A DNA stretch of 33,050 nucleotides from Myxococcales bacterium (GTDB lineage Bacteria; Myxococcota_A; Polyangia; Polyangiales; SLQV01): contig SLQV01000212.1 of the NCBI GenBank assembly GCA_007131285.1, positions 1 to 33,050 on the forward strand, given 5' to 3'. The translations under genes and the position numbers were made by a program. Shown here in pieces: positions 1 to 32,991 of the stretch (position 1 is its first letter; the number at the start of each line of letters is the position of its first letter). The notes beneath the pieces are model-generated. The model saw only the letters and a program-made list of their open reading frames with translations, ran no database searches and was not told the origin of the DNA.

Positions 1-175
1 CAGGGCCTTCCTGAGTGTCAGCGTTCAGGGGTCGCGTACCCGCGTACAATGTCTCTATGAGCACGGTCTCAATGAACACGCGCTCCACTTTCCGTCCCAG
101 CTGCACCTGCGGTCGCGTTCGCCTTCGCGCATGCTTGGCTAGACGTACCCCTGGCTAGACGCGCGGCGCGAAGTA

Positions 176-183
176 GATGCCTG
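176..183. repeat. Target site duplication, left flank of MITE copy 1
   Basis: GATGCCTG is repeated exactly at 358-365 immediately after the right end of the element. This defines both element boundaries and points to a recent insertion. Confidence 0.9.
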
Positions 184-357
184 GTAACCGTTCAGGGGGT
201 CCAGAAAGCAAAAACGCTGCGGAAAGAAGCAAGTGGGCGTTGGGGACCCGCTTGCCGGCTTTAGGCCACTCTTTAGAGGTACAGTGGGGGAGGGTTTGCG
301 GGATTTGCTCCCGTAAATCCGGGGGCATGCGTGTAAAATGCCCCCCTGAACAGTTAC
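184..357 (+). mobile_element. MITE copy 1, IS66-like ends, perfect 8-bp TSD
   Basis: A 174-bp element without a gene. The left end reads GTAACCGTTCAGGGGG (184-199) and the right end CCCCCCTGAACAGTTAC (341-357), an imperfect terminal inverted repeat beginning GTAAC. It is flanked by a perfect 8-bp duplication, GATGCCTG, at 176-183 and 358-365. Ends beginning GTAA with 8-bp target duplications are typical of the IS66 family, so mobilisation by an IS66-type transposase is inferred. Two hairpins abut in the right half: 292-302 with 310-320 (two G-T wobbles) and GGGGGCAT 321-328 with ATGCCCCC 338-345. A second young copy lies inverted at 30916-31075 and an old one at 27045-27184. Confidence 0.9.
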
Positions 358-365
358 GATGCCTG
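358..365. repeat. Target site duplication, right flank of MITE copy 1
   Basis: Exact copy of GATGCCTG found at 176-183, directly after the terminal GTTAC of the element. Confidence 0.9.
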
Positions 366-436
366 AACCGGAAGCCGCGTTTGAGATTCCGGGGCGTTCG
401 GTTCGCGTTTTAGAGCCGCGATGAAAGTGTAGCGAG

Positions 437-1462
437 TTATGCCCGCCGCTGTTCAAGTAGCTCCCTCAAAGCTGAAGGCATATAACGGCGCGCGCGTCGC
501 GTGATGACGTTCTCTTTCTTCTGCCACAGCAGTCCGAGATAGATAATGCCAAGGCCTATGGCGGAAAGCGCCACGGGAAATAGCCACATGTCGCTGAATA
601 CGTGATGGGCGACGTAGCCGAGATAGAGCGCAACCCCAAGCGCGCCGAATACTACAAATACCCGGCGAACAAGCACCGCTCCCACCCCAACTAACATCAG
701 ATTGATACAAAAATATACGAACTTTGACAGTTCGCTTTCTGATTCCTGCAATGAAAGACCGCACCAGAAGGTGATAATGCCAAACAAATACATCCAGAAA
801 GCGTAGTCTCCGGACCTAGATGAACGCAAATCTATCCAGAAAGAAAGCAAGAGCATTGCGAGGCCGAAGTACAAAGACACCTGAGTGCGGAGCTTGAAGT
901 CGGCTGCGCCGTCTGCGAGCAGCGGCGCTAGGTCCATCGAAAGATACCAAAGCGTGAGTGCGATGGGCATCAAGAGAAACGGATAACGGTACCGGTAGGC
1001 GATGATGGCGCCGGCCGCGAGGGTCCCAAGTTCCATGTAAAGCCAATGCCACTTGATATAACGATGGTAGTCTCGATATGCCGTTTCATCTGGCCACCAT
1101 CCCATGCCTTGCTGCAGGCCGTAAATGGCAAGAGGTGTTAACGCCACAACAAAAGCTGCACAAAGTCCGGAAGGAACGATGTGGTCGCCACGCCGAAAGC
1201 GGTTAGCTAGCGCTATTCCGCCAGCGGCATATAGTAAAGTGATTCCTAGGATCCCCCAGCCGCCAAACGTTTCCCAGCTCAGGTTCATGAATATCGTCAT
1301 GGCGCCTATGGCGATCAGTCCGCCGAGGTAATAGAGCACATGCGTAAAATCGAAGCGAGGAGTGGTCGGTGTTTTTGAAAACCATAGATCGGCGAGTTGT
1401 GTGGCCTGTTCTCGGCTGATAATGGATTTCTCAACAGCTAAGTCGAGTTGCTTCTGGTTCAC
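437..1462 (-). CDS. DUF2157-like polytopic membrane protein
   Basis: Encodes 341 aa. The N-terminal 30 residues form a small soluble segment with the pattern LDLAVEKSIISREQATQL. This resembles the start of DUF2157 membrane proteins, where a short helical region precedes a polytopic domain. About ten hydrophobic segments follow, from residue 41 to 313, and the cytoplasmic tail is basic (TRRARRYMPSALRELLEQRR). The start is a GTG at 1460-1462, chosen because AGAGGA lies just upstream and because the open frame further upstream (to 1603) runs into a palindrome and is Pro/Arg-rich. Function is unknown, and family membership rests on pattern only. The upstream region carries a long palindrome (1518-1686) about 55 bp from the start codon, and a MITE sits about 80 bp past the stop. 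Confidence 0.8.
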   Translation of the reverse strand: MNQKQLDLAVEKSIISREQATQLADLWFSKTPTTPRFDFTHVLYYLGGLIAIGAMTIFMNLSWETFGGWGILGITLLYAAGGIALANRFRRGDHIVPSGLCAAFVVALTPLAIYGLQQGMGWWPDETAYRDYHRYIKWHWLYMELGTLAAGAIIAYRYRYPFLLMPIALTLWYLSMDLAPLLADGAADFKLRTQVSLYFGLAMLLLSFWIDLRSSRSGDYAFWMYLFGIITFWCGLSLQESESELSKFVYFCINLMLVGVGAVLVRRVFVVFGALGVALYLGYVAHHVFSDMWLFPVALSAIGLGIIYLGLLWQKKENVITRRARRYMPSALRELLEQRRA

Positions 1463-1934
1463 GTTGTCCTCTGTAACATGTCGCCTTGTCGGTCTAATAG
1501 AAGGTAAGGGTTCAGGGGGGTGCGGCCCTGAGCCATCCCCGTCAATGAGCCTGGGGGACGAAAGCCGCGGGGAAATGGGCCTTTCGTGCGCGGACCCACC
1601 CACCCCACCATACTTACTCCAGGCCCATTTCCCCGCGGCTTTCTGCGTCTCGAGTTAATGAGGGGATCGCTCAGGGTGCGGCACCCAAAAACATCAGCAG
1701 TAGAGGGCAAGCGGGTGTGCGCGGGCCGCGCGCAACGGTAGGCCATCTTTCCGCGGTGTCGTGGGGGAGGAGGCGTCGGGCGTTTCGCCCACCTGCATGC
1801 GCTGCGGCCCCATGAACCGAGCTGCGGGGGCGCTATAGCATGCGTATCCGGGGTGCCCCCACGCGTAGCGCCCGGGCACGGGCCTCGAATAGAGGTAGGC
1901 GACCAAATCCTCGACGCGCTAGTCTGCCAAGTCT
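1463..1934. other. Divergent intergenic region with palindrome
   Basis: 472 bp between a minus-strand and a plus-strand gene. It contains the palindrome at 1518-1686 and, just before it, GTAAGGGTTCAGGGGGG (1504-1520), which matches the MITE terminal repeat at 15 of 17 positions. No convincing gene was found between 1690 and 1934, and no clear promoter was recognised for the 1409-aa gene. Confidence 0.5.
1518..1686. repeat. Long palindrome with a perfect 23-bp core
   Basis: The core arms 1560-1582 and 1621-1643 are exact reverse complements of 23 bp, separated by 38 nt. The complementarity continues imperfectly outward: 1518-1559 pairs with 1644-1686, sharing stretches such as GGGGAT, GCTCAGGG and the outer GGGTGC/GCACCC. 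The total arm length is about 65 bp. No target duplication was found. It could be a palindromic repeat element, a cruciform or an RNA hairpin in the leader of the DUF2157-like gene. Confidence 0.8.
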
Positions 1935-4900
1935 ATGACGCGTCTGACGCTTGGGGTATTGGCTTTGGTCGGGCTATGTTGGTCGCTTTCGGCGCAGGCG
2001 GCGCCGTTGCCGCTCGAGCATGTGCCGGCGCCGTTACGCGCCTGGGTTCCCTGGGTCTTGCACGCAACCTCCGACCTGCGCTGCCCGCCGCTAGATAAGG
2101 GTGGGCGCCAGTGCGAGTGGCTTGCCAGTCTAGCGCTCGACGTCGATGCGAGCGGCGTGAGCTTCGTCGCCCGTGTCGATTTAGACCGGCCAGGTTTCGT
2201 ACGCCTGCCCGGCGACAGCGCCACAACGGTAGCGGTGCTCAGCGAGGGCAAGGATAAGCCGCTTGTGCCGGTGTGGGTAGACGGAGAGTGGCGGGCTTTC
2301 GTAGGTGCCGGCGAACGCACGCTGACCGGCCGTTTGACCTGGCAAGCGAGGCCTGACGCGATGGCGCTCCCGGATGGTTTCGCCGCGGTGACCGTTAATG
2401 GTCTCGCGGAGGACGGGTATCGCATCGATGGGGGTCGTTTGGTTTTGCGCGCGCGAGGCGGCACCGGCTCCGGGGCCGAATCGGACGCAGTAGAGGTGCA
2501 GGATGGGATGCACGTCGAGGTGCAGCGACGCGTCGTTGCGGGGCGCCAAACCATGGTCGAGACGCGGGTGTTGTTGGAGGTTTCCGGCCGGCCGCGCATG
2601 GTGGAGGTGCCGGGCGCCTTGCTCGAGGGGTTTGTCTTGCATGCGCTCGACACACCTCTCGGCGCTGAGGTGACCGGTCAGCGCGCGCTGGTTCTCGAAG
2701 CGCTGCCGGGTGAATGGGACGTTCGTGTCGTGGGCCGGGCCGCGCCCGAGACGCTGCGCTTTGTGCCGGAATCCGCCCAGGCCCTGCCTGATTTGCTTGC
2801 GGGTGAGACCTGGGTTGTGAGTTCGAGCGCTCTACCCATTGCCGCCATTCTCGGTGGGAGCCCCGTCGATCCCGCCCAAACCCGCCTGCCTTCAGACTGG
2901 CAAGGTGAGCGCGCTTTTCGCCTGGTGCCTACAGCAACCCTCGCCGTTACCCTTGGGCAGCCGGAAGAAGTGCGAGGTTCGCTGACGCTTCATCGCGAGC
3001 TTTGGCTAGATTTCGCGGGCAAAGAGCTGAGCGGCCGCGAGCACCTCAGCGGCACGCTCTTAAGCGAAAATGGGCGCGGCGTTGAGCGTTTGCGGCTCAA
3101 CGCGCAAGCCCCTTGGGTACCCGGTCGCGTTTTGCTCGGGGGCGTGCCCCGGCTCATCACGACGGACCCCACAAGTGGACTTCCGGGCATCGAAGTGCCT
3201 TCCGGACCCTTCGATCTGGTGGCGGAGATGCACGCCTCGCTTAAGCGTCCGATTCAAGCGCAGCCCGTGCTGCCTTGGCATACGGAGGCTACCGAGGCGA
3301 CGGGGCTGATCCATCTGCCGCCGGGCTTTTTGCTGCTCGGCGCCAAGGGCGTGGTCGCATCGGAAAGCTGGCTCGGCGCGTGGGATCTTTGGTTGGCCTT
3401 CGTCTGGTTTCTATCGGTCTTCTTGGCCTACAAGCTCTTTGGCTGGCGGGTAGCCTTGCTTGCCTTGGTGGCCTTGGGCCTCTCTTTGAGCGCCGCGGCG
3501 GCGCCGCGTTCGGTTTGGGTATGGCTGCTCGCAGCGCTCGCGAGTCTTTCGGCCGTTACCGGTTTGCTCGAGAGTCGCCCCGCGTTGGGGCGCGGCCTGA
3601 GGCAGGCGTTTCGCTTCTTGACGCTCGGCGCCGCACTCACGCTCGTCGGCTACCTTATCCCCTTCACCCTCAGCGACGTGAAACTGGCGCTCTTTCCCGC
3701 CCTTGAATCGGGCCATGCCATGGAGCTAACGGCTGAGAGTATGGCCGCATCTTCCCTGCGAGGCGCGCCCGCGCCGCGCCGCCGCAGCGCGCCGCGGGCT
3801 GATGCGGCGGCCGAATACGAGATGCTAGCCACCGCGGAGATGAATGAAGATGTGATCGCAGGCGATAGCCCCCAAGCGCCGCCTCACAAAAGCACGCACT
3901 CTCAAAGCCAGCAGCTTGTGCGCAAAAAGCTCGAAAGCCCGCCGGGACCTGCCGGTGCGGGCGGCGGCGCCTCCCTCGGTGATGCGCATCAGCTCGCCGC
4001 GGTGCAGACGGGCACGGGCCTGCCTCTCTGGCGCTGGCGGACGCACGCGCTCTCCTGGCCGGGCCCGGTCGCGGCTTCGGCGTCCTTCCGTTTATGGCTC
4101 GCGCCGCCCTGGCTCGTTGCGCTGCTGCGCTTAGTGCGGTCGCTGCTGGTGTTGGCTTTGGCCGGGCACTGTTTGCACCGCCTCGCACGCGACTATCGTG
4201 AGCTGTCCCCGGCGCAGAACACCGGCACAGCACCGCTCGCCGCCTCGCTTGCGCTGCTGGCGGGTTTGCTCCTGCCAGCCAGTGCCGCCGGTCAGTCAGA
4301 AGGCGCCGGCTTTCCCAGCGAGGCCATGTTAAGCGAGCTGCGCGACCGCCTCGCAGCGCCGCCGGACTGCGCCCCCGGTTGCGCCGCCGTGGCGCACATT
4401 CAAGTGCGAGCGAACGTCACGCACCTTGCCCTGGAGGTAGACATTGAACACGCCGCCCGCGTCGTCAGTGCCTTGCCCACGCTTGGCGCCGGCGGGTGGC
4501 CCGAGCGCATCGTCACCCGCGGCAACGAAGCAATACGCGTGACGCGTGTGGACAGCCTGCTCTTGCTGGAGGCACCCGCAGGCCGCCACCGGATCAGGCT
4601 TGAAGGCCGTCTCGACGACGAGGTCGCCGCCCTCAACTTACCGTATGCGCCGCGGAAGCTAACGCTGGACCTCGATCACGTGCTGGTCGAAGGGGTGCGC
4701 GATGGCCTGCCTGCGGGCAATACACTCACCCTGCGCAAGGTCGCGGCCCGCGTCGAGCAACCAGGCGACCTGGCTGCGCCAGGTCCACAGCGCCAAAGCG
4801 TCGAGCCGTTTGGCCATGTTGTCCGCACCCTCGCGCTGACCTCCCAGTGGCAGCTCAGCACGACGCTTTCCCGCGAGAATCCCTCGAGTGGGGCACTCCA

Positions 4901-6164
4901 CGTGCTGCTGCCACGTCTACCGGGTGAAACGCCGCTGAACGATCAGGTTGAGGTGCTGGGCGATGCGCTTAAGGTCACGCTGCCCGCCGGTGCGGGCGCG
5001 CTCACGTTCGAGTCACGCATTGAGGCGCGGCCCCAGCTCAGCCTCACCCGTGTGTCGAGCCCGCAGGTCGAAACGTTCTGGCGCTTGCGCAATGCCGGGC
5101 CGTGGCAGGTCCGGGCGGCCCGCCCAGGTGAGCTGCAAGCTGCCCCAGGCGGCATGTTGGAATGGACGCCCTCGGCGGGAAGCACAAGTCTCGATGTAGG
5201 CATCTCACCCCTCGCTGGTAGCCCCGGCGCGACAACAACCCTGACCCATGTGAAACTCCGGGAGCATCAGGGTGCAACCACTCGCCGCTCAACGCTAACC
5301 CTCAGCTTGCGCTCAAGTGTGGGTGAGGCGTTCTCGCTGCCGCTGCCCAAGGGCGCCGTGCTTAGCCACGTAAAGCGCGCCGGCGAGTTCATGGCTACCA
5401 ACAGCAGCGCCGAGGGGTTGCGTCTTGCGGTGCCGCCCGGTGAGCAAGAGGTCGAGGTCGAATGGACCGCGCCCCACGTGCCCGGCTTCCGGCTGCGAAC
5501 CTCTGCGCTGAGCTTGCCATTCCCCACCCGCAACGTATCGCTCGCGCTTGACGTCGGGGCACCGCGTTGGCTGCTCTGGCTGCAAGGGCCTGGTGCCGGT
5601 CCCGCGCTGCTGTTCTGGCCGACTGTCCTGCTGCTCGCGTTGCTCGCTGTTGTGCTGGGACGCTTGCCGCTACATCTCACTGCGCTGTCGTGGTTTCTGC
5701 TGGGTCTTGGTTTGACGCAGAGCCTCCCAGCGGCGGGGCTCACGCTGGTTGCCCTCTTTGCCACGTGCCTCTGGCGGCGGCGCGTCGAGCTCGCCAATCC
5801 CTATCTTTTTAACCTACGGCAGCTCTTGTTGTTGTGGTTGATGCTGCTTGGCCTTGTGACCTTGCTCGATGCGCTGCGCACCGGCTTGCTCGGCGTGCCG
5901 AAAAGCTACGTCGCGCACGTGATCGGTGGCGACGGAGCCTCTCTGCTTGAATGGTTCAGCGCGGCCCAGGTTTCGTCGCTGCCCCAAGCCACTGTTCTCT
6001 CCGCACCGATGTGGTGCTACCAGCTGCTGATGTTTGCCTGGGCTCTCTGGCTTGCCACGGCCTTGCCAAGCTGGGTGCGCTGGATCGGTGGCAGCATCGT
6101 TCAAGACGGCCTCATCAAGCCCCTTAACCGCCGCCAATCATCGAGTGCACCACCTGCTACGTAA
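1935..6164 (+). CDS. Large membrane protein with two related periplasmic halves, unknown function
   Basis: Encodes 1409 aa. Residues 1-22 look like a cleavable signal peptide (ending SAQA). A large beta-rich external region runs to about residue 475 and is followed by about four membrane segments (478-600). A low-complexity linker rich in Ala, Ser, Pro and Gln follows (about 605-700), then membrane segments near 723-745 and 765-785, a second external region (about 790-1215) and four or five C-terminal membrane segments (1223-1388). The start of the second external region (from about 797) resembles the first (from about 25): both have a Cys pair, a beta-strand series, a GAGERTLTGRL / PAGRHRIRLEGRL hairpin and a later D/EG...GRLVLR-like strand. 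This suggests internal duplication. I recognise no named domain. The ATG has no clear Shine-Dalgarno sequence. A hairpin follows the stop, and catalase begins 106 bp later. Confidence 0.88.
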   Translation: MTRLTLGVLALVGLCWSLSAQAAPLPLEHVPAPLRAWVPWVLHATSDLRCPPLDKGGRQCEWLASLALDVDASGVSFVARVDLDRPGFVRLPGDSATTVAVLSEGKDKPLVPVWVDGEWRAFVGAGERTLTGRLTWQARPDAMALPDGFAAVTVNGLAEDGYRIDGGRLVLRARGGTGSGAESDAVEVQDGMHVEVQRRVVAGRQTMVETRVLLEVSGRPRMVEVPGALLEGFVLHALDTPLGAEVTGQRALVLEALPGEWDVRVVGRAAPETLRFVPESAQALPDLLAGETWVVSSSALPIAAILGGSPVDPAQTRLPSDWQGERAFRLVPTATLAVTLGQPEEVRGSLTLHRELWLDFAGKELSGREHLSGTLLSENGRGVERLRLNAQAPWVPGRVLLGGVPRLITTDPTSGLPGIEVPSGPFDLVAEMHASLKRPIQAQPVLPWHTEATEATGLIHLPPGFLLLGAKGVVASESWLGAWDLWLAFVWFLSVFLAYKLFGWRVALLALVALGLSLSAAAAPRSVWVWLLAALASLSAVTGLLESRPALGRGLRQAFRFLTLGAALTLVGYLIPFTLSDVKLALFPALESGHAMELTAESMAASSLRGAPAPRRRSAPRADAAAEYEMLATAEMNEDVIAGDSPQAPPHKSTHSQSQQLVRKKLESPPGPAGAGGGASLGDAHQLAAVQTGTGLPLWRWRTHALSWPGPVAASASFRLWLAPPWLVALLRLVRSLLVLALAGHCLHRLARDYRELSPAQNTGTAPLAASLALLAGLLLPASAAGQSEGAGFPSEAMLSELRDRLAAPPDCAPGCAAVAHIQVRANVTHLALEVDIEHAARVVSALPTLGAGGWPERIVTRGNEAIRVTRVDSLLLLEAPAGRHRIRLEGRLDDEVAALNLPYAPRKLTLDLDHVLVEGVRDGLPAGNTLTLRKVAARVEQPGDLAAPGPQRQSVEPFGHVVRTLALTSQWQLSTTLSRENPSSGALHVLLPRLPGETPLNDQVEVLGDALKVTLPAGAGALTFESRIEARPQLSLTRVSSPQVETFWRLRNAGPWQVRAARPGELQAAPGGMLEWTPSAGSTSLDVGISPLAGSPGATTTLTHVKLREHQGATTRRSTLTLSLRSSVGEAFSLPLPKGAVLSHVKRAGEFMATNSSAEGLRLAVPPGEQEVEVEWTAPHVPGFRLRTSALSLPFPTRNVSLALDVGAPRWLLWLQGPGAGPALLFWPTVLLLALLAVVLGRLPLHLTALSWFLLGLGLTQSLPAAGLTLVALFATCLWRRRVELANPYLFNLRQLLLLWLMLLGLVTLLDALRTGLLGVPKSYVAHVIGGDGASLLEWFSAAQVSSLPQATVLSAPMWCYQLLMFAWALWLATALPSWVRWIGGSIVQDGLIKPLNRRQSSSAPPAT

Positions 6165-6166
6165 TG

Positions 6167-6195
6167 CACCGGTTCCGGCGCCGTCGGCACCGGTG
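6167..6195 (+). terminator. Hairpin after the 1409-aa gene
   Basis: CACCGGT (6167-6173) pairs with ACCGGTG (6189-6195), extended by CCG (6175-6177) with CGG (6185-6187) across a 1x1 mismatch, and a 7-nt loop. It begins 2 nt after the stop codon. It has no U-tract, so it may be a weak terminator or mRNA-stabilising hairpin. Confidence 0.45.
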
Positions 6196-6270
6196 AAATC
6201 AGAGGGCGCGTGGTGCCGGGGTTGCCAAGCTGCGCCGTTGGCTTTAGTTCGTTTATGAGCAGGAAAGAAT

Positions 6271-7752
6271 ATGAAAGATTCGTCGAAAGCCGAAAAGCGA
6301 GTGCTAACCAACGAAGCTGGGGCACCCATCGAAAACAACGAGCATTCGCAGCGTGCGGGCGCCGCTGGGCCCACCTTGTTGCAAGACCATCACCTGGTGG
6401 AGAAGCTCGCCCGTTTCAACCGTGAGCGCATTCCCGAGCGCGTCGTCCACGCCGTTGGCACCGGCGTCTACGGCACCTTCGAGACCACCCACGCATCGGT
6501 GAGCCAATGGACGTGCGCGAAGCTCTTTGCGCAGGCGGGCAAGCAGACGCCGGTCTTTTTGCGTTTCTCGACGGTGGCGGGCTCCCGCGGTGCTTCAGAC
6601 ACCGTGCGCGACCCCCGCGGTTTTGCCGTCAAGTTCTACACGGAAGAGGGCAACTGGGACCTTGTCGGCAACAACACGCCCGTGTTCTTTGTCCGGGACG
6701 GCATCAAGTTTCCCGACTTCATCCACTCGCAAAAGCCCGACCCGCACACCAACCGCCAGGAGCCCGACAACGTCTGGGATTTCTTCGCCCATTCACCGGA
6801 AACCACCCATCAAGTGGTGTGGCTCTTCGGCGATCGGGGCTTGCCCGCCTCCTACCGCCACATCGACGGTTTTGGTTCCCACACCTTCCAGTGGGTCAAC
6901 GCCGAGGGGGCGCGTTTCTGGGTGAAGTTTCACTTCAAGACCGACCAGGGCATCAAGTGTTTTACCGCGGAAGAAGCGCGCGCAGCCGCGGCTGAGGACA
7001 CGCTGCACGCACACAGCGACATGTACGCGGCCATTGAGCGCGGCGACTTCCCCTCCTGGACGCTCAAGGTGCAGGTGATGCCCGAGGCCGAAGCCGCGAA
7101 CTACCGCTTTAACCCCTTCGACCTGACGAAAGTGTGGCCGCACGCGGACTACCCGCTCATTCCCATCGGCAAACTTACGCTGAACCGGTTGCCGGAGAAC
7201 TACTTTGCGGAAGTGGAGCAAGTCGCGTTCAATCCGGGCAGCTTTGTGCCGGGCATTGGCCCTTCACCCGACCCGATGCTTCAGGCGCGCCTCTTCGGTT
7301 ACGGCGATGCCCAGCGCTACCGCCTTGGCATCAACCACACGCGTCTGCCGGTCAATGCGCCTAAGTCCGTATCCGGAGGGGCCTCCAACTACGGCCGCGA
7401 CGGGGCGATGGCCTTCGATGGCAACGGCGGTCGCAGCGTAAACTACACGCCCAACACTGTGGGCGGCCCGGCGCCTACCGGTGCGCCCTACGCGCTTGGT
7501 TACGACGCCACGGGGTCCGTCGGTCAGCACGGCCTTATCGCCCACCGTGACGATGATGACTTCGGTCAAGCAGGCGCCCTCTATCGTGTGATGGATGCCG
7601 CCGCGAAAGACCGCCTCATCGCTACCCTCGCCCAGCAGCTGAGCGGCGTTCGCCGCGAAGCCGTACGCGAGCGCGCCCTCGCCAACTTCACCCAAGCCGA
7701 CGCCGACCTCGGCCACCGCCTAACCCAAGCCCTAGGCGCCGCCCGCGGCTAA
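6271..7752 (+). CDS. katA: Monofunctional haem catalase
   Basis: Encodes 493 aa, the usual size of a small-subunit catalase, which converts hydrogen peroxide to water and oxygen. The distal catalytic His is H60 in ERVVHAVGTGVYG. The distal Asn is N134 in DLVGNNTPVFF. The proximal haem-ligand Tyr is Y344 in RLFGYGDAQRYRLG. The diagnostic blocks RFSTVAGSRGASDTVRDPRGFAVKF, split here around residues 98-122, and FNPFDLTKVWPHADYPLIP (280-298) are intact. The start ATG is preceded by AGGAAAG at good spacing. There is no signal peptide, so it is probably cytoplasmic. No OxyR- or PerR-type gene is adjacent; the only Fur-family regulator in the window lies about 5.4 kb away and looks paired with a COG0523 gene. 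A hairpin follows the stop. Confidence 0.97.
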   Translation: MKDSSKAEKRVLTNEAGAPIENNEHSQRAGAAGPTLLQDHHLVEKLARFNRERIPERVVHAVGTGVYGTFETTHASVSQWTCAKLFAQAGKQTPVFLRFSTVAGSRGASDTVRDPRGFAVKFYTEEGNWDLVGNNTPVFFVRDGIKFPDFIHSQKPDPHTNRQEPDNVWDFFAHSPETTHQVVWLFGDRGLPASYRHIDGFGSHTFQWVNAEGARFWVKFHFKTDQGIKCFTAEEARAAAAEDTLHAHSDMYAAIERGDFPSWTLKVQVMPEAEAANYRFNPFDLTKVWPHADYPLIPIGKLTLNRLPENYFAEVEQVAFNPGSFVPGIGPSPDPMLQARLFGYGDAQRYRLGINHTRLPVNAPKSVSGGASNYGRDGAMAFDGNGGRSVNYTPNTVGGPAPTGAPYALGYDATGSVGQHGLIAHRDDDDFGQAGALYRVMDAAAKDRLIATLAQQLSGVRREAVRERALANFTQADADLGHRLTQALGAARG

Positions 7753-26686: not shown

Positions 26687-27300
26687 GCGCCGCGCGGGTG
26701 TCGACAAGACGCTGCGCCCGCCCGCCGGGCGTGGCTCTTTGCCCCGAGGTAATAACGAGCGGGTCGCTTGTGCATCGAGACGCTGTGCGGCGTCGAAAAC
26801 GGCAGCCTGGTTCATGCGCGGGCAAAATGACATGCGCGTCCTGCTCTGTCATCCATCCGCGCAGACCGAGCAGCAGTTCTGCGGTCTGCCGTAGCGCATG
26901 TATGGTGTCGTCGCGGTTCAGACCACGCGCGGGCGTATGAAGGTCTGAGGCGTCCGCAAACGCGCTCGATGCCGCGTGACCAGCGCGTTTTCGGGTGCCG
27001 CACAACACAACACGGGTCTCCGCGCCGAGATCATAGAGCGTTGCTTAAGCGTGCAGGGGATCGGGCACGCAAAAAGTCAGCACAAGGGTGCCAGCGGGTG
27101 TTGAGGCCCAAGCGGGAGAGCGGGTTCGGGATTCACGCCCGAACCCTCGGGGGCATGCGGGTAAAATGCCCGCTAAACCGTCAGCAAGTTGCTAGGAGGT
27201 GCGCCGGATCCCGGGCAGGCCTCGCGGCGAGATGAACTCCGCCTAGAGACCAGGTTTGTGGGGGGGCCAGACATGGCTTGCGCGGGCCGGGCACCCGGCT
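26687..27300. other. Intergenic region with decayed MITE copy 3
   Basis: About 610 bp. It contains the diverged mobile element 27045-27184. The rest is without a supported gene: frames on either strand are short, Arg-rich and lack ribosome sites. Confidence 0.5.
27045..27184 (+). mobile_element. MITE copy 3, old and decayed
   Basis: About 140 bp, related along its length to copies 1 and 2. The left end TTAAGCGTGCAGGGGATC aligns with GTAACCGTTCAGGGGGTC, and GCGGGTGTTGAGGCCC aligns with GTGGGCGTTGGGGACCC. The core GGGGGCATGCGGGTAAAATG is almost identical to the young copies. The flanking octamers AGCGTTGC (27037-27044) and CAAGTTGC (27185-27192) share their last five bases, consistent with an eroded 8-bp target duplication. 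Both hairpins persist: GGGTTCGGG/CCCGAACCC (27122-27130/27138-27146) fully paired, and 27149-27156/27166-27173 with one mismatch. Confidence 0.72.
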
Positions 27301-28156: not shown

Positions 28157-29032
28157 ATGGAGGATGCCGATGCGCTCGCTTGGTGTGATGGGCAGGTGTG
28201 CGCTGCAAAAACGGTGCGGATAGGTCCGCTGGATCGCAGCTTTCTCTACGGTGATTCCGTATTCGAGGTGTTTCGGACTTATGGCGGGAATCCCTGTCAG
28301 CTGGAGGCCCATGTGGCGCGTCTTGAGGCCTCGGCCACCCAGCTCCGTTTCGTTGAGGTTCCACCGCGTACGGAGCTGATGGTGGCGGGCGCGACGCTGA
28401 GCGCGTCGGCCTACGCCCACTTTGGGCGCGACGTATATATCAGGCTGCTGCTCAGCCGGGGCAGTGGTCCGATTCGCTACCAGCTCGACGATCTTGGCGC
28501 TCCGTGTCTCCTAGGCCTCGCGCTTCCGCTGAGCCCGCCGGATCCCGCGCTCTATCGGATCGGCGCCGCGCTGCGATCGATGCAGGTCTGGCGACCCGCA
28601 GACAACGTTTTCGCGTTGCACACGAAATCCAGCAACTACCTGCCACATATCATGGCGCTTGATGAGGCGCGCCGGGCCGGGGCCGACGATGCCCTTGTGC
28701 TCGGCCCGCAGGGAGAAGTCCTCGAAGGCTCCACCAGCAACGTGTTTTGGGCGCGCCGAGGCGAACTGTTTACGCCAACTTCCCGCTTGCCCATCCTCGA
28801 CGGCATCACGCGCAGGACGGTTCTGGGGTGCATTGAGCGGGCAGGACTTACGCTCCACGAGGGGGTGTATTTCCCCTGCGACATTTACGCTGCCGACGAA
28901 GTGTTTATCACCTCGTCGATTCGCGAAGTGCTGCCTATCACGGTCCTCGATGGCAGGCCCGTCGGCCAAGGCGCGCCCGGTCCTTTCTCCCAACACCTGC
29001 TCGAAGCCTATCGGAACGAGGTCTGCAACTAG
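28157..29032 (+). CDS. Class IV PLP-dependent aminotransferase (IlvE/Dat/PabC fold)
   Basis: Encodes 291 aa. The fold-type IV pattern is clear: DRSFLYGDSVFEVFRTYGG (26-44), PLP lysine K157 in HTKSSNYLP, the glutamate loop LEGSTSNVF (189-197) and LDGITRR (214-220). Members include branched-chain aminotransferase, D-amino-acid aminotransferase and aminodeoxychorismate lyase. EGSTSNVF occurs in the last two more than in IlvE, but the KSSNYLP segment is ambiguous, so I leave substrate open. A lyase role would fit folate synthesis, but the pterin gene is 5 kb away. The ATG at 28157 gives the normal N-terminus; no Shine-Dalgarno sequence. gpmA follows 108 bp downstream. Confidence 0.92.
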   Translation: MEDADALAWCDGQVCAAKTVRIGPLDRSFLYGDSVFEVFRTYGGNPCQLEAHVARLEASATQLRFVEVPPRTELMVAGATLSASAYAHFGRDVYIRLLLSRGSGPIRYQLDDLGAPCLLGLALPLSPPDPALYRIGAALRSMQVWRPADNVFALHTKSSNYLPHIMALDEARRAGADDALVLGPQGEVLEGSTSNVFWARRGELFTPTSRLPILDGITRRTVLGCIERAGLTLHEGVYFPCDIYAADEVFITSSIREVLPITVLDGRPVGQGAPGPFSQHLLEAYRNEVCN

Positions 29033-29140
29033 CTTCCGCTCGAGACTCGAGTCGCAACGCGCGGCAGGAGGGGCAGTTGAAGTCGGCGGCTCGATGTCTC
29101 GCCCTTGAGTCGTCGGGCACACGGCGCTAGGACGCTAGGT

Positions 29141-29833
29141 ATGCCAGGAACGTTAGTACTGCTTCGTCACGGTGAGTCGCAGTGGAATTTAGAGAACCGC
29201 TTTACGGGCTGGGCAGATGTGCCCCTTACCGAGAACGGCCGCAGAGAAGCCAGCGCCGCGGGCGAACTGCTCAAGCGGCACAAGCTTGCCTTCGACGCGG
29301 TGCACACTTCGGTGCTGGTGCGGGCGATCAAAACCGCGAACCTCGCACTCGAAAGTGCGGAACAGCAATACCTGCCAGTCACGCGCACTTGGCGCTTAAA
29401 CGAACGTCACTACGGCGCGCTGCAGGGGCTAAACAAAGCCGAGACAGCAGAGAAGCATAGTCCTGAACAAGTACAGATCTGGCGCAGATCTTACGCGACA
29501 CCGCCGCCTGCGCTCGCGTTAGATGACTCTCGTCATCCTCGATTCGACCCGCGTTACGCGGCGCTGCCCAGTGAATGCTTGCCAGGAGCTGAGTGTCTCA
29601 AGGATACGCTCGAGCGCATGCTTCCCTATTGGCAGGACCAGCTTGCCCCTGCGCTTAAGACTGGACAGTCTGTGCTGGTGGTCGCTCATGGAAATTCGCT
29701 GCGCGCACTGGTTAAGCACCTGAATCGCATCAGCGATGCCGACATTATGGAGCTCAATATCCCCACAGGAAAGCCGTGGCGCTTCAAGCTCGACAGCGAT
29801 TTGAAGCCCGAACAATCCGGTTACCTCGAGTAA
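29141..29833 (+). CDS. gpmA: 2,3-bisphosphoglycerate-dependent phosphoglycerate mutase
   Basis: Encodes 230 aa. It interconverts 3-phosphoglycerate and 2-phosphoglycerate in glycolysis and gluconeogenesis in the cytoplasm. The phosphohistidine is H10 in [10 protein letters not shown], with catalytic E88 in [14 protein letters not shown] and H182 in [14 protein letters not shown]. The substrate-loop sequence [15 protein letters not shown] (19-33) and IPTGKPWRF near the end are typical of GpmA rather than the short phosphatase relatives. The start ATG 29141 follows AGGA/TAGGT; an upstream start at 29105 adds 12 residues not seen in the family. A hairpin lies 8 nt after the stop. Confidence 0.96.
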
Positions 29834-29892: not shown

Positions 29893-30534
29893 CTAACGCG
29901 CGACCGCTAGCAGCGTCCAAAAGTACGTGAGCCGCGTTCCAGGTCGAACGCAGCGGCCTATCCCAGCGAGGGAATAGTCCGGGCCAAGCATGTTCTGCCG
30001 ATGGCCATCGCTAGCGAACCACTGCTCGAAGGTAGCGTCTCCGCTAGCTGAGCCGGCTGCAAGATTTTCCGCTCCTGCAACTCGGCCGTCGCATGCCGGT
30101 TCGAAGCCCGCAGCACACATGCGCTCGACAAACGTCGAGCCGTCAGGTCCGGTGTGCGAAAGTACTTCTTCGTTCGCGAGCACGCACGCGAAGTCCCGAG
30201 CCGCACGCACAAGCGACGCCTCCGCAGCAAGCGGCTCGAGTGACGCCTGCACCCGGAGTTCATTGATGCGCGCAAGAGCTGCTTGCTCCTCAGCTTCGAG
30301 CGCGGCGGGGTCTGTCGCCGCGCGCCCTTGCGCCGCTGGCGAGCTGCGCACCGCATCATCGGCGCCGCAGCCCGTGGTGGAGCCAATGAGGTTCATGGTG
30401 CCGAGGACGGCGGCGCACGCTGCGAGCGTGCTCAGCATTCTCGACCGCCACGCGTCGCCTAAAGCCAGCGCGTTCCGCCGATCAGCGCGATGCGTAGACG
30501 CGCGCGGTGTTGGATTGTTACATTGGTTCACCAT
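29893..30534 (-). CDS. CAP-domain (SCP/PR-1) lipoprotein
   Basis: Encodes 213 aa. An N-terminal hydrophobic segment, MLSTLAACAAVLGTMNLIG (33-51), ends in a possible lipobox STTGC. The CAP domain follows, with LSHTGPDGSTFVERM, AGAENLAAGS, FASDGHRQNMLGPDYSLAGIG and a final YFWTLLAVA strand, all standard for the family. Bacterial CAP proteins are secreted and poorly understood. The ATG at 30534 is favoured since the n-region then has basic residues; ATG 30438 is possible. TACAAT (30541-30546, minus strand) stands 6 nt before the 30534 start, suggesting a leaderless mRNA. A U-tailed hairpin follows. Confidence 0.88.
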   Translation of the reverse strand: MVNQCNNPTPRASTHRADRRNALALGDAWRSRMLSTLAACAAVLGTMNLIGSTTGCGADDAVRSSPAAQGRAATDPAALEAEEQAALARINELRVQASLEPLAAEASLVRAARDFACVLANEEVLSHTGPDGSTFVERMCAAGFEPACDGRVAGAENLAAGSASGDATFEQWFASDGHRQNMLGPDYSLAGIGRCVRPGTRLTYFWTLLAVAR

Positions 30535-30907: not shown

Positions 30908-30915
30908 CTTCGTCG
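30908..30915. repeat. Target site duplication, left flank of MITE copy 2
   Basis: CTTCGTCG, repeated exactly at 31076-31083. Confidence 0.9.
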
Positions 30916-31075
30916 GTAACTGTTCAGGGGGGCATTTTACACGCATGCCCCCGGGTTTTCGGGAGTAAATCCCGCAAACCCTCCCCCAAAAAACCTAAAG
31001 CCGGCAAGCGGGGCCCCAGCGCCCACTTGCTTCTTTCCGCAGCGTTTTTACTTTTTGGACCCCCTGAACGGTTAC
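30916..31075 (-). mobile_element. MITE copy 2, inverted relative to copy 1, perfect 8-bp TSD
   Basis: A 160-bp element in the opposite orientation to copy 1. Terminal sequences are GTAACTGTTCAGGGGGG (30916-30932) and CCCCCTGAACGGTTAC (31060-31075). The flanks are an exact 8-bp duplication, CTTCGTCG, at 30908-30915 and 31076-31083. It is nearly identical to copy 1 except for a small internal deletion next to the Gly/Thr-like G-run segment (copy 1 has extra bases around 265-285). Two abutting hairpins are kept: 30928-30935/30945-30952 and 30953-30963/30971-30981. Confidence 0.9.
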
Positions 31076-31083
31076 CTTCGTCG
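31076..31083. repeat. Target site duplication, right flank of MITE copy 2
   Basis: CTTCGTCG, exact copy of 30908-30915, directly after the terminal GTTAC. Confidence 0.9.
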
Positions 31084-31185: not shown

Positions 31186-32991
31186 TCACTCGCAGGGTGT
31201 TTCCGTCAAGGGCTGATCGGCGAGCGCTAAGGCGCTGTCGTTCGTGGAGTACGTCAACGTGGCGGTTCCGGGGGCGCGGCTCTCGGCGACAGCGAAGCAT
31301 CGCGGCAACCCGTGGGGCTGGCTGATGCGCAGATGTGTCGCCGCGCTAGGCCGCGGTGGTAGGGAGATGGCCGCGCCTGTCTGGCTACCGCGGCCCTGCT
31401 GCGCATGCCAACTTTGGGGCGTGTGGAGGGGCATGAGGGCCTGCGAACCCGGCGTCGCAGCCGGCTGCGATGCCATCCAGGCTGCACTTAGACCCGCGCT
31501 TTGCGCGGTAGCGCGCAGCCGCAGCAGGGCGTGGGGTGGAGTGGCACTGGCTTCACTTAGCAATACCGTTACGCTGGCAGCGCTTTGTACGTCGGCGCTC
31601 GACGTATTTCCCAGCCTGAGTTGGGCAATATCTAGGGCGCCATCTCCGTTAAAATCGCCGGCTACCACGCTATGGATAAAGCCCGAAGGTAACGCGACTT
31701 GGGGTTTTAAGGGCCGAAAGTGCACGCGTTCGCCGTCACGCATGCCGTAAAGGATTTTGCTTTCAACCTGCTTGAGCCGATGCACCCAGAAGTGTGGGTC
31801 ATTTTGGCCAACTACCAGGTCGCTTTTGCCGTCACCGTTGAGGTCGACGAGGAGAGGGCCCCAGCCAGCCGCAAGCGAAAAAAGGCCCGCAGTGTGGGCC
31901 TCGGACGCGTAGATCCGGGGCGCCGTGGCGCGGAGCAGCGCGTGCCCTTGATAAAACGCGCGCGTTTCGCCTTTGGGACGTGAGCGCAAAATCGGCGGGT
32001 AGGTGCTGCCCTCGTTTGTGAAGAACAGGGTCGCACGTCCGCTACCGTCGAGATCCGCCGCAGCGATGCCGCGAAAAGTTGCCTGCTCGTCGCCGATATC
32101 GGCGGGCCTGAAGCCACGGCCGTCGCCGTAGGCCACGATAGGAGCGCTGGCTTGTGCCGCCACCGCAAGGTCGAGGATGCCATCGGCATCTGCATCGACG
32201 GCGAGTAGGTGCAGCGTTCCGGGGGTATGAAAGACTTCCCGCGGAGGCCCAAACGGCGGCGCGTCCTCGCCTGAGTTGAGGCCGCGCAACACGCGCACGG
32301 GGCATGGTCCTGTCTCTGCCACGCAGCCTACCGCGATATCCACTCTCCCGTTTCCATCAAAGTCTCCCCAGGTAAGCGCGGTCAAGCGCTCTGCGCGGGG
32401 GGCGGTCCAGAGGGTACGCACTCTAAACGTATCAAAGCCGGTTGCGGTTTCGCTGAAGGTCCAAGCGAGGAGAGCGTCGTCCCGCAGTGCTAGCCAGTGA
32501 TGGCGGTCATCGCCCCGGTACCAACCCGCGACGGCGCGCATTTCCCCCGCGCCGCTCGCACTTGCGTTCGATGAAGACGCGTGGCTATGGCGCTCCGAGG
32601 GCGCGGTTGGCAGGGGCAGGGGGTGCCGCGTTAGAACGCCGGCCCGGTAACATAAGATAACGGGCTCAACGGCACCCGCGACTAGGCAGTCACCTGCTGG
32701 GTGGTTGACAACGCCGAGGGCCGCGAGAGGTAGCGCTGGATCCGTTAGTGCAACGTCGAGTGGTGCGCTGAGAGCCTCGGGCCGGAAAACCGGCACCCCT
32801 TCTGCGGCCTTGGGTAGGCGCTCTGACGGATAGAGTGCGCTGGTCAAAACCAGACCAGTGACCCACACTGCAAGGGTCGCGCCCCCTACGATCACAAGCT
32901 TGCGGCCCGAGATTGGGGCGCGCGCCCGCTCCGGTGCCTCGCTGTGGTTTGTGCTGCTTTTCTGCTCCCCCATGCTCGCGCGATTGTTCAT
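31186..32991 (-). CDS. FG-GAP/VCBS-repeat membrane-anchored protein
   Basis: Encodes 601 aa. A cytoplasmic N-terminus of 30 residues, Gln/Ser/Arg-rich, leads to one membrane anchor (31-52), so most of the protein is external. At least five calcium-loop repeats are seen: DFDGNGRVDIAVG (210-222), DADADGILDLAV (267-278), DLDGSGRATLFF (313-324), DLNGDGKSDLVVG (383-395) and DFNGDGALDIAQL (446-458). These make a beta-propeller of the FG-GAP/VCBS type. The C-terminal 130 residues are less conserved and may resemble an ASPIC/UnbV module (HALLRLRATAQSAG). Family members act in adhesion or cell-surface binding; no specific ligand is inferred. The start ATG lacks a clear ribosome site; a second ATG follows six codons later. 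Confidence 0.9.
   Translation of the reverse strand: MNNRASMGEQKSSTNHSEAPERARAPISGRKLVIVGGATLAVWVTGLVLTSALYPSERLPKAAEGVPVFRPEALSAPLDVALTDPALPLAALGVVNHPAGDCLVAGAVEPVILCYRAGVLTRHPLPLPTAPSERHSHASSSNASASGAGEMRAVAGWYRGDDRHHWLALRDDALLAWTFSETATGFDTFRVRTLWTAPRAERLTALTWGDFDGNGRVDIAVGCVAETGPCPVRVLRGLNSGEDAPPFGPPREVFHTPGTLHLLAVDADADGILDLAVAAQASAPIVAYGDGRGFRPADIGDEQATFRGIAAADLDGSGRATLFFTNEGSTYPPILRSRPKGETRAFYQGHALLRATAPRIYASEAHTAGLFSLAAGWGPLLVDLNGDGKSDLVVGQNDPHFWVHRLKQVESKILYGMRDGERVHFRPLKPQVALPSGFIHSVVAGDFNGDGALDIAQLRLGNTSSADVQSAASVTVLLSEASATPPHALLRLRATAQSAGLSAAWMASQPAATPGSQALMPLHTPQSWHAQQGRGSQTGAAISLPPRPSAATHLRISQPHGLPRCFAVAESRAPGTATLTYSTNDSALALADQPLTETPCE

Follow-up and report, generated by a model that had tools for sequence, protein, structure and literature searches.

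Elements A and B, two short repeats in the 33,050-nucleotide stretch of DNA that we analysed (the window), represent a new MITE family of the ordinary kind, a genomic parasite. The best explanation of the data (probability roughly 0.93) is that they belong to a non-coding MITE family of high copy number, whose cutting and joining is done by the transposase of an IS66-family insertion sequence of the same genus, one that has tnpC only and carries the same 16-bp terminal inverted repeat. In the mechanism that we propose, this IS66 element, living now or formerly in the same genus, would supply the transposase, and the enzyme would act in trans on the MITE via the shared 16-bp terminal inverted repeat. 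Each insertion would then produce an 8-bp staggered target duplication, and some MITE copies may still be mobile. What emerges is an IS66-derived MITE present in many copies, along with fragments of the probable parent from the same genus. The repeats also help to account for the broken assemblies of these genomes, with a number of contigs terminating within them.

The coordinates, termini and both target octamers that an earlier note on this DNA had given for A and B proved exact to the base (Table 1). The octamers are identical on both sides of each element, GATGCCTG for A and CTTCGTCG for B, and the 16-bp terminal inverted repeats GTAACCGTTCAGGGGG and GTAACTGTTCAGGGGG differ from each other at one position. 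The earlier note had described the two elements as nearly identical; they are indeed related copies, but their identity is only 87%, and B is inverted and shorter by 14 bp in its central part. The hallmarks on which the assignment to IS66 had been based, ends beginning GTAA and 8-bp duplications, were present in A and B as well as in the family copies. Furthermore, two copies in the window had been missed at first reading, one at 27046-27181 and a disrupted one at about 1504-1817. The alignment of the latter scored 87 to A and 79 to B, and the maximum among shuffled sequences, which were scored against B, was 54. Genes encoding a CAP-domain protein, an aminotransferase, a phosphatase and an FG-GAP repeat protein lie near element B, and we noticed no tie between them and the MITEs.

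Table 1. Mobile elements, target duplications and neighbouring genes in the window, with same-ended repeats from other genomes
Feature	Position	Strand	Basis or remark
Element A, IS66-type MITE, 174 bp	184-357	+	terminal repeats GTAACCGTTCAGGGGG / GTAACTGTTCAGGGGG
Left 8-bp target duplication of A, GATGCCTG	176-183	.	direct sequence
Right 8-bp target duplication of A, GATGCCTG	358-365	.	sequence
Element B, IS66-type MITE, 160 bp	30916-31075	-	87% identical to A, inverted, shorter middle
8-bp target duplication of B, CTTCGTCG	30908-30915	.	
8-bp target duplication of B, CTTCGTCG	31076-31083	.	
Third IS66-type MITE copy, degraded	27046-27181	+	BLAST, local alignment
Fourth IS66-type MITE copy, degraded, split by the element at 1528-1674	1504-1817	+	alignment
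Second MITE, 146-147 bp, IS10-like ends CTGAGCCATCCCC... / ...GGGGATCGCTCAG	1528-1674	+	sequence comparison
Class IV aminotransferase gene	28157-29032		
Histidine phosphatase gene	29105-29833		
CAP-domain protein gene	29893-30534		
FG-GAP repeat protein gene	31186-32991		
Other IS66-ended repeats	L119-L135 (G022); L136-L137 (G030); L050 (G011)		

The MITE family is short (about 155-175 bp), non-coding and dispersed, with 16-bp terminal inverted repeats. The genome-wide search for further copies that the earlier note had called for yielded 42 matching places in the genome of origin (a 3.1 Mb draft in 216 contigs) and 44 matches in a sister genome of the same genus, many of them with differing 8-bp duplications. 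The 15-base end TAACNGTTCAGGGGG occurred 35 times in the genome of origin, compared to zero occurrences of its reversed control. The two genomes together provided 59 distinct complete copies, whose flanks we analyzed. Of these, 41 had an 8-bp duplication in which no more than one base disagreed (19/28 in the genome of origin and 22/31 in the sister genome), while 0.93 were expected when partners were shuffled. In 29 of the 59 copies an exact 8-bp duplication was the longest match, and two copies showed an exact 9-bp match that was absent in the 8-bp register. There were 40 different octamers among the 41 duplications and, thus, many separate insertions. A recognisable duplication was absent in 18 of the 59 complete copies, as would be expected for old copies. 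The orthologous intergenic region of element A in the sister genome (G001), consulted for an empty-site comparison, was heavily diverged. Across the phylum, 379 genomes were sampled, and full matches to the MITE occurred in two, both belonging to this genus. Spread by plasmids was considered and rejected, as there was no match among 72,556 plasmid records.

If the repeats were instead a selected structured RNA or regulatory element, for example one resembling a terminator, that had been dispersed in some other manner, their transposon-like ends would be secondary. The interior does form strong hairpins, and in a rough test the insertion sites lay mostly outside long reading frames, as this alternative would have it. 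However, the folding energies are ordinary for the composition (z -1.2 and -0.6), compensatory changes showed no excess (18 observed, 21.6 in shuffles), and there was no Rfam match in the window. Moreover, it takes transposition to produce exact 8-bp duplications at many sites. We therefore rejected a structured-RNA function, which we regard as very improbable.

Turning to the enzyme behind the proposed IS66-mediated transposition, the window was reported to be without an IS66 transposase gene, and this is borne out by the sole PF03050 match of the genome, which sits on contig C3. It is a C-terminal fragment of 150 residues, lying where the contig ends (PF03050, E 8.7e-7; NF033517, E 9.5e-24, partial), and (A)TAACTGTTCAGGGGGG follows about 25-40 bp behind its stop codon, the terminus being altered (ATAACTG...). 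In the sister genome, four transposase 3' fragments (L188, L189, L190 and L191) are 86-97% identical to the C3 fragment, and each is followed by GTAA(C/G)CGTTCAGGGGG; the right end expected of the IS66-type parent is GTAACCGTTCAGGGGGGTGGCGACG. These four ends have different flanks, mostly at contig breaks, as is expected of a multi-copy element. A further candidate, L146, was rejected as a plain IS66 3' end, since it holds an inserted IS10-like MITE. On the left side, in the sister genome, GTAACCGTTCAGGGGGG lies about 65 bp before a transposase reading frame at L145; the left-end terminus GTAACCGTTCAGGGGGGCGCGAAAG precedes the IS66-type N-terminus by the same distance, and this N-terminus matches DUF6444. 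The left and right IS66 ends with the same 16 bp are on separate contigs in G001. Neither the genome of origin nor its sister, both drafts that break at these repeats, yielded an intact transposase gene in assembly.

Related elements were found elsewhere in the same order. A 1550-bp element in another family (L174) has the ends GTAACCGTTCAGG and the octamer CGGTAAGT on both sides, and its only frame is a frameshifted IS66 tnpC, while at L138 the exact 16-bp end stands before an IS66-type N-terminus. Among IS66 loci retrieved with a general PF03050 search, none had ends that matched when up to three mismatches were allowed. The parental element that the earlier note had predicted thus appeared in part: IS66-type transposase fragments adjoin the same 16-bp terminus on both sides, but in what appears to be a tnpC-only arrangement rather than with tnpA, tnpB and tnpC. 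We did not encounter the three-gene form, as the approximately 65 bp from left end to tnpC in G001 are too short for tnpA plus tnpB and L174 has the tnpC frame only. Consequently, the parent appears to carry only tnpC. Members with tnpC only are known in the IS66 family, so that tnpA and tnpB are not defining for the family as a whole; we take the tnpC-only type to be the ISBst12 group. Some IS66 relatives have an extra small reading frame on the opposite strand between one end and tnpC (L170:1057-1467, L202:1204-1569 and L203:1783-2187). This frame might be an accessory gene, and that of L170 has no Pfam match.

The MITE resembles tnpC-only IS66 elements in its ends beginning GTAA, in its 8-bp target duplication and in the related transposase that, within the genus, borders on the same terminal repeat. 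It differs in that it has no gene and has only the ends in common with them: the similarity covers 16-17 bp (about 22 of 25 at the left end), and the interiors are unlike. As judged from sequence, similarity confined to the ends gives no demonstration that the MITE arose by simple internal deletion of this IS66, and it is what one would commonly see when an IS mobilises, in trans, a MITE that shares its ends. The mobilising enzyme could alternatively be a transposase of another family with similar ends, and the genome of origin indeed yielded no intact IS66 transposase. However, the identical 16-bp end adjoins IS66 transposase fragments on both sides within the same genus, and the related element at L174 has such ends and made an 8-bp duplication. 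We consider another enzyme highly unlikely, and mobilisation in trans by an IS66 transposase is what these data suggest.

Compatible with this explanation, and concerning present activity only, is the possibility that the family is extinct, its copies being remnants of an earlier IS66 burst and an active transposase no longer being present. Consistent with extinction, the genome of origin shows only the transposase fragment with its altered terminus, and many copies are diverged (mean identity 89%, minimum 77%, among complete copies in that genome). On the other hand, six A-type copies in the same genome show 95% identity or more to one another, which suggests a rather recent burst, and the duplications are mostly intact; furthermore, an intact transposase copy may be missing from a draft that breaks at repeats. 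We regard extinction as a real possibility, at somewhat less than even odds.

The fourth IS66-type copy is interrupted by a second MITE, which surfaced as a repeat at 1503-1677 in a search with positions 1-6500 of the window. It has the ends CTGAGC(C/G)ATCCCCTCA, the end form being given as CTGAGCGATCCCC, and is surrounded by the 9-bp repeats GGTGCGGC(C/A) at 1519-1527 and 1675-1683. Its inverted right end agrees at 15 of 16 bases with the IS10 end, a sequence that was confirmed beside IS4-like transposases in plasmids. The sister genome contains about 40 or more copies of this IS10-like MITE, and most copies have 9-bp duplications.

The sister genome has the IS10-like MITE at this same position, with a target of about GGTCNAGAN, in L343, L351, L352, L353 and L354, and in L349, which is partly readable; at L331 the MITE lies within the right end of the IS66 itself. 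Each insertion lies some 15 bases inward from the end of an IS66-type element. In seven cases (three with one mismatch) matching 9-bp repeats were found on both sides, each fitting its own host copy, in a sample that is biased because the query included host flank. Within a locus the two 9-mers agree, and they vary from locus to locus, a pattern better explained by independent insertions than by the copying of one composite. Two unrelated MITE families of one genus might interact, the IS10-like MITE repeatedly and independently entering one fixed site about 15 bases inside IS66-type ends and perhaps silencing them or hitchhiking, a reading to which we give an even chance. With this nesting, the use of one mobile element by another as a preferred landing site becomes open to test.

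Parental families have been described for several bacterial MITEs: MITECca01 has an IS982 parent (PMC9769881), MITEPye1 is assigned to the IS1182 family (PMC11578231), and MITEPsy1 to ISPsy2, tentatively of the IS5 family (PMC3189936). Like these three, the present family is short, non-coding and multi-copy, with terminal repeats matching a parental IS and with mobility in trans proposed; it differs from them in its parental family, IS66, and in its 8-bp duplication. IS66 elements with 8-bp duplications have been tabulated (PMC3281130). We found no description of an IS66-type MITE in the literature, where coverage was incomplete and absence is weak evidence.

Three genomes from other families of the same order (G022, G030 and G011) also contain MITE-like repeats that share the 16-bp end and have 8-bp duplications. 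Their interiors are unrelated to that of the present MITE, and they form independent families. Such different same-ended repeats in other genera suggest that IS66 ends probably gave rise to MITEs several times in this order. In G022 there are 150 exact ends, and many contigs break in these repeats.
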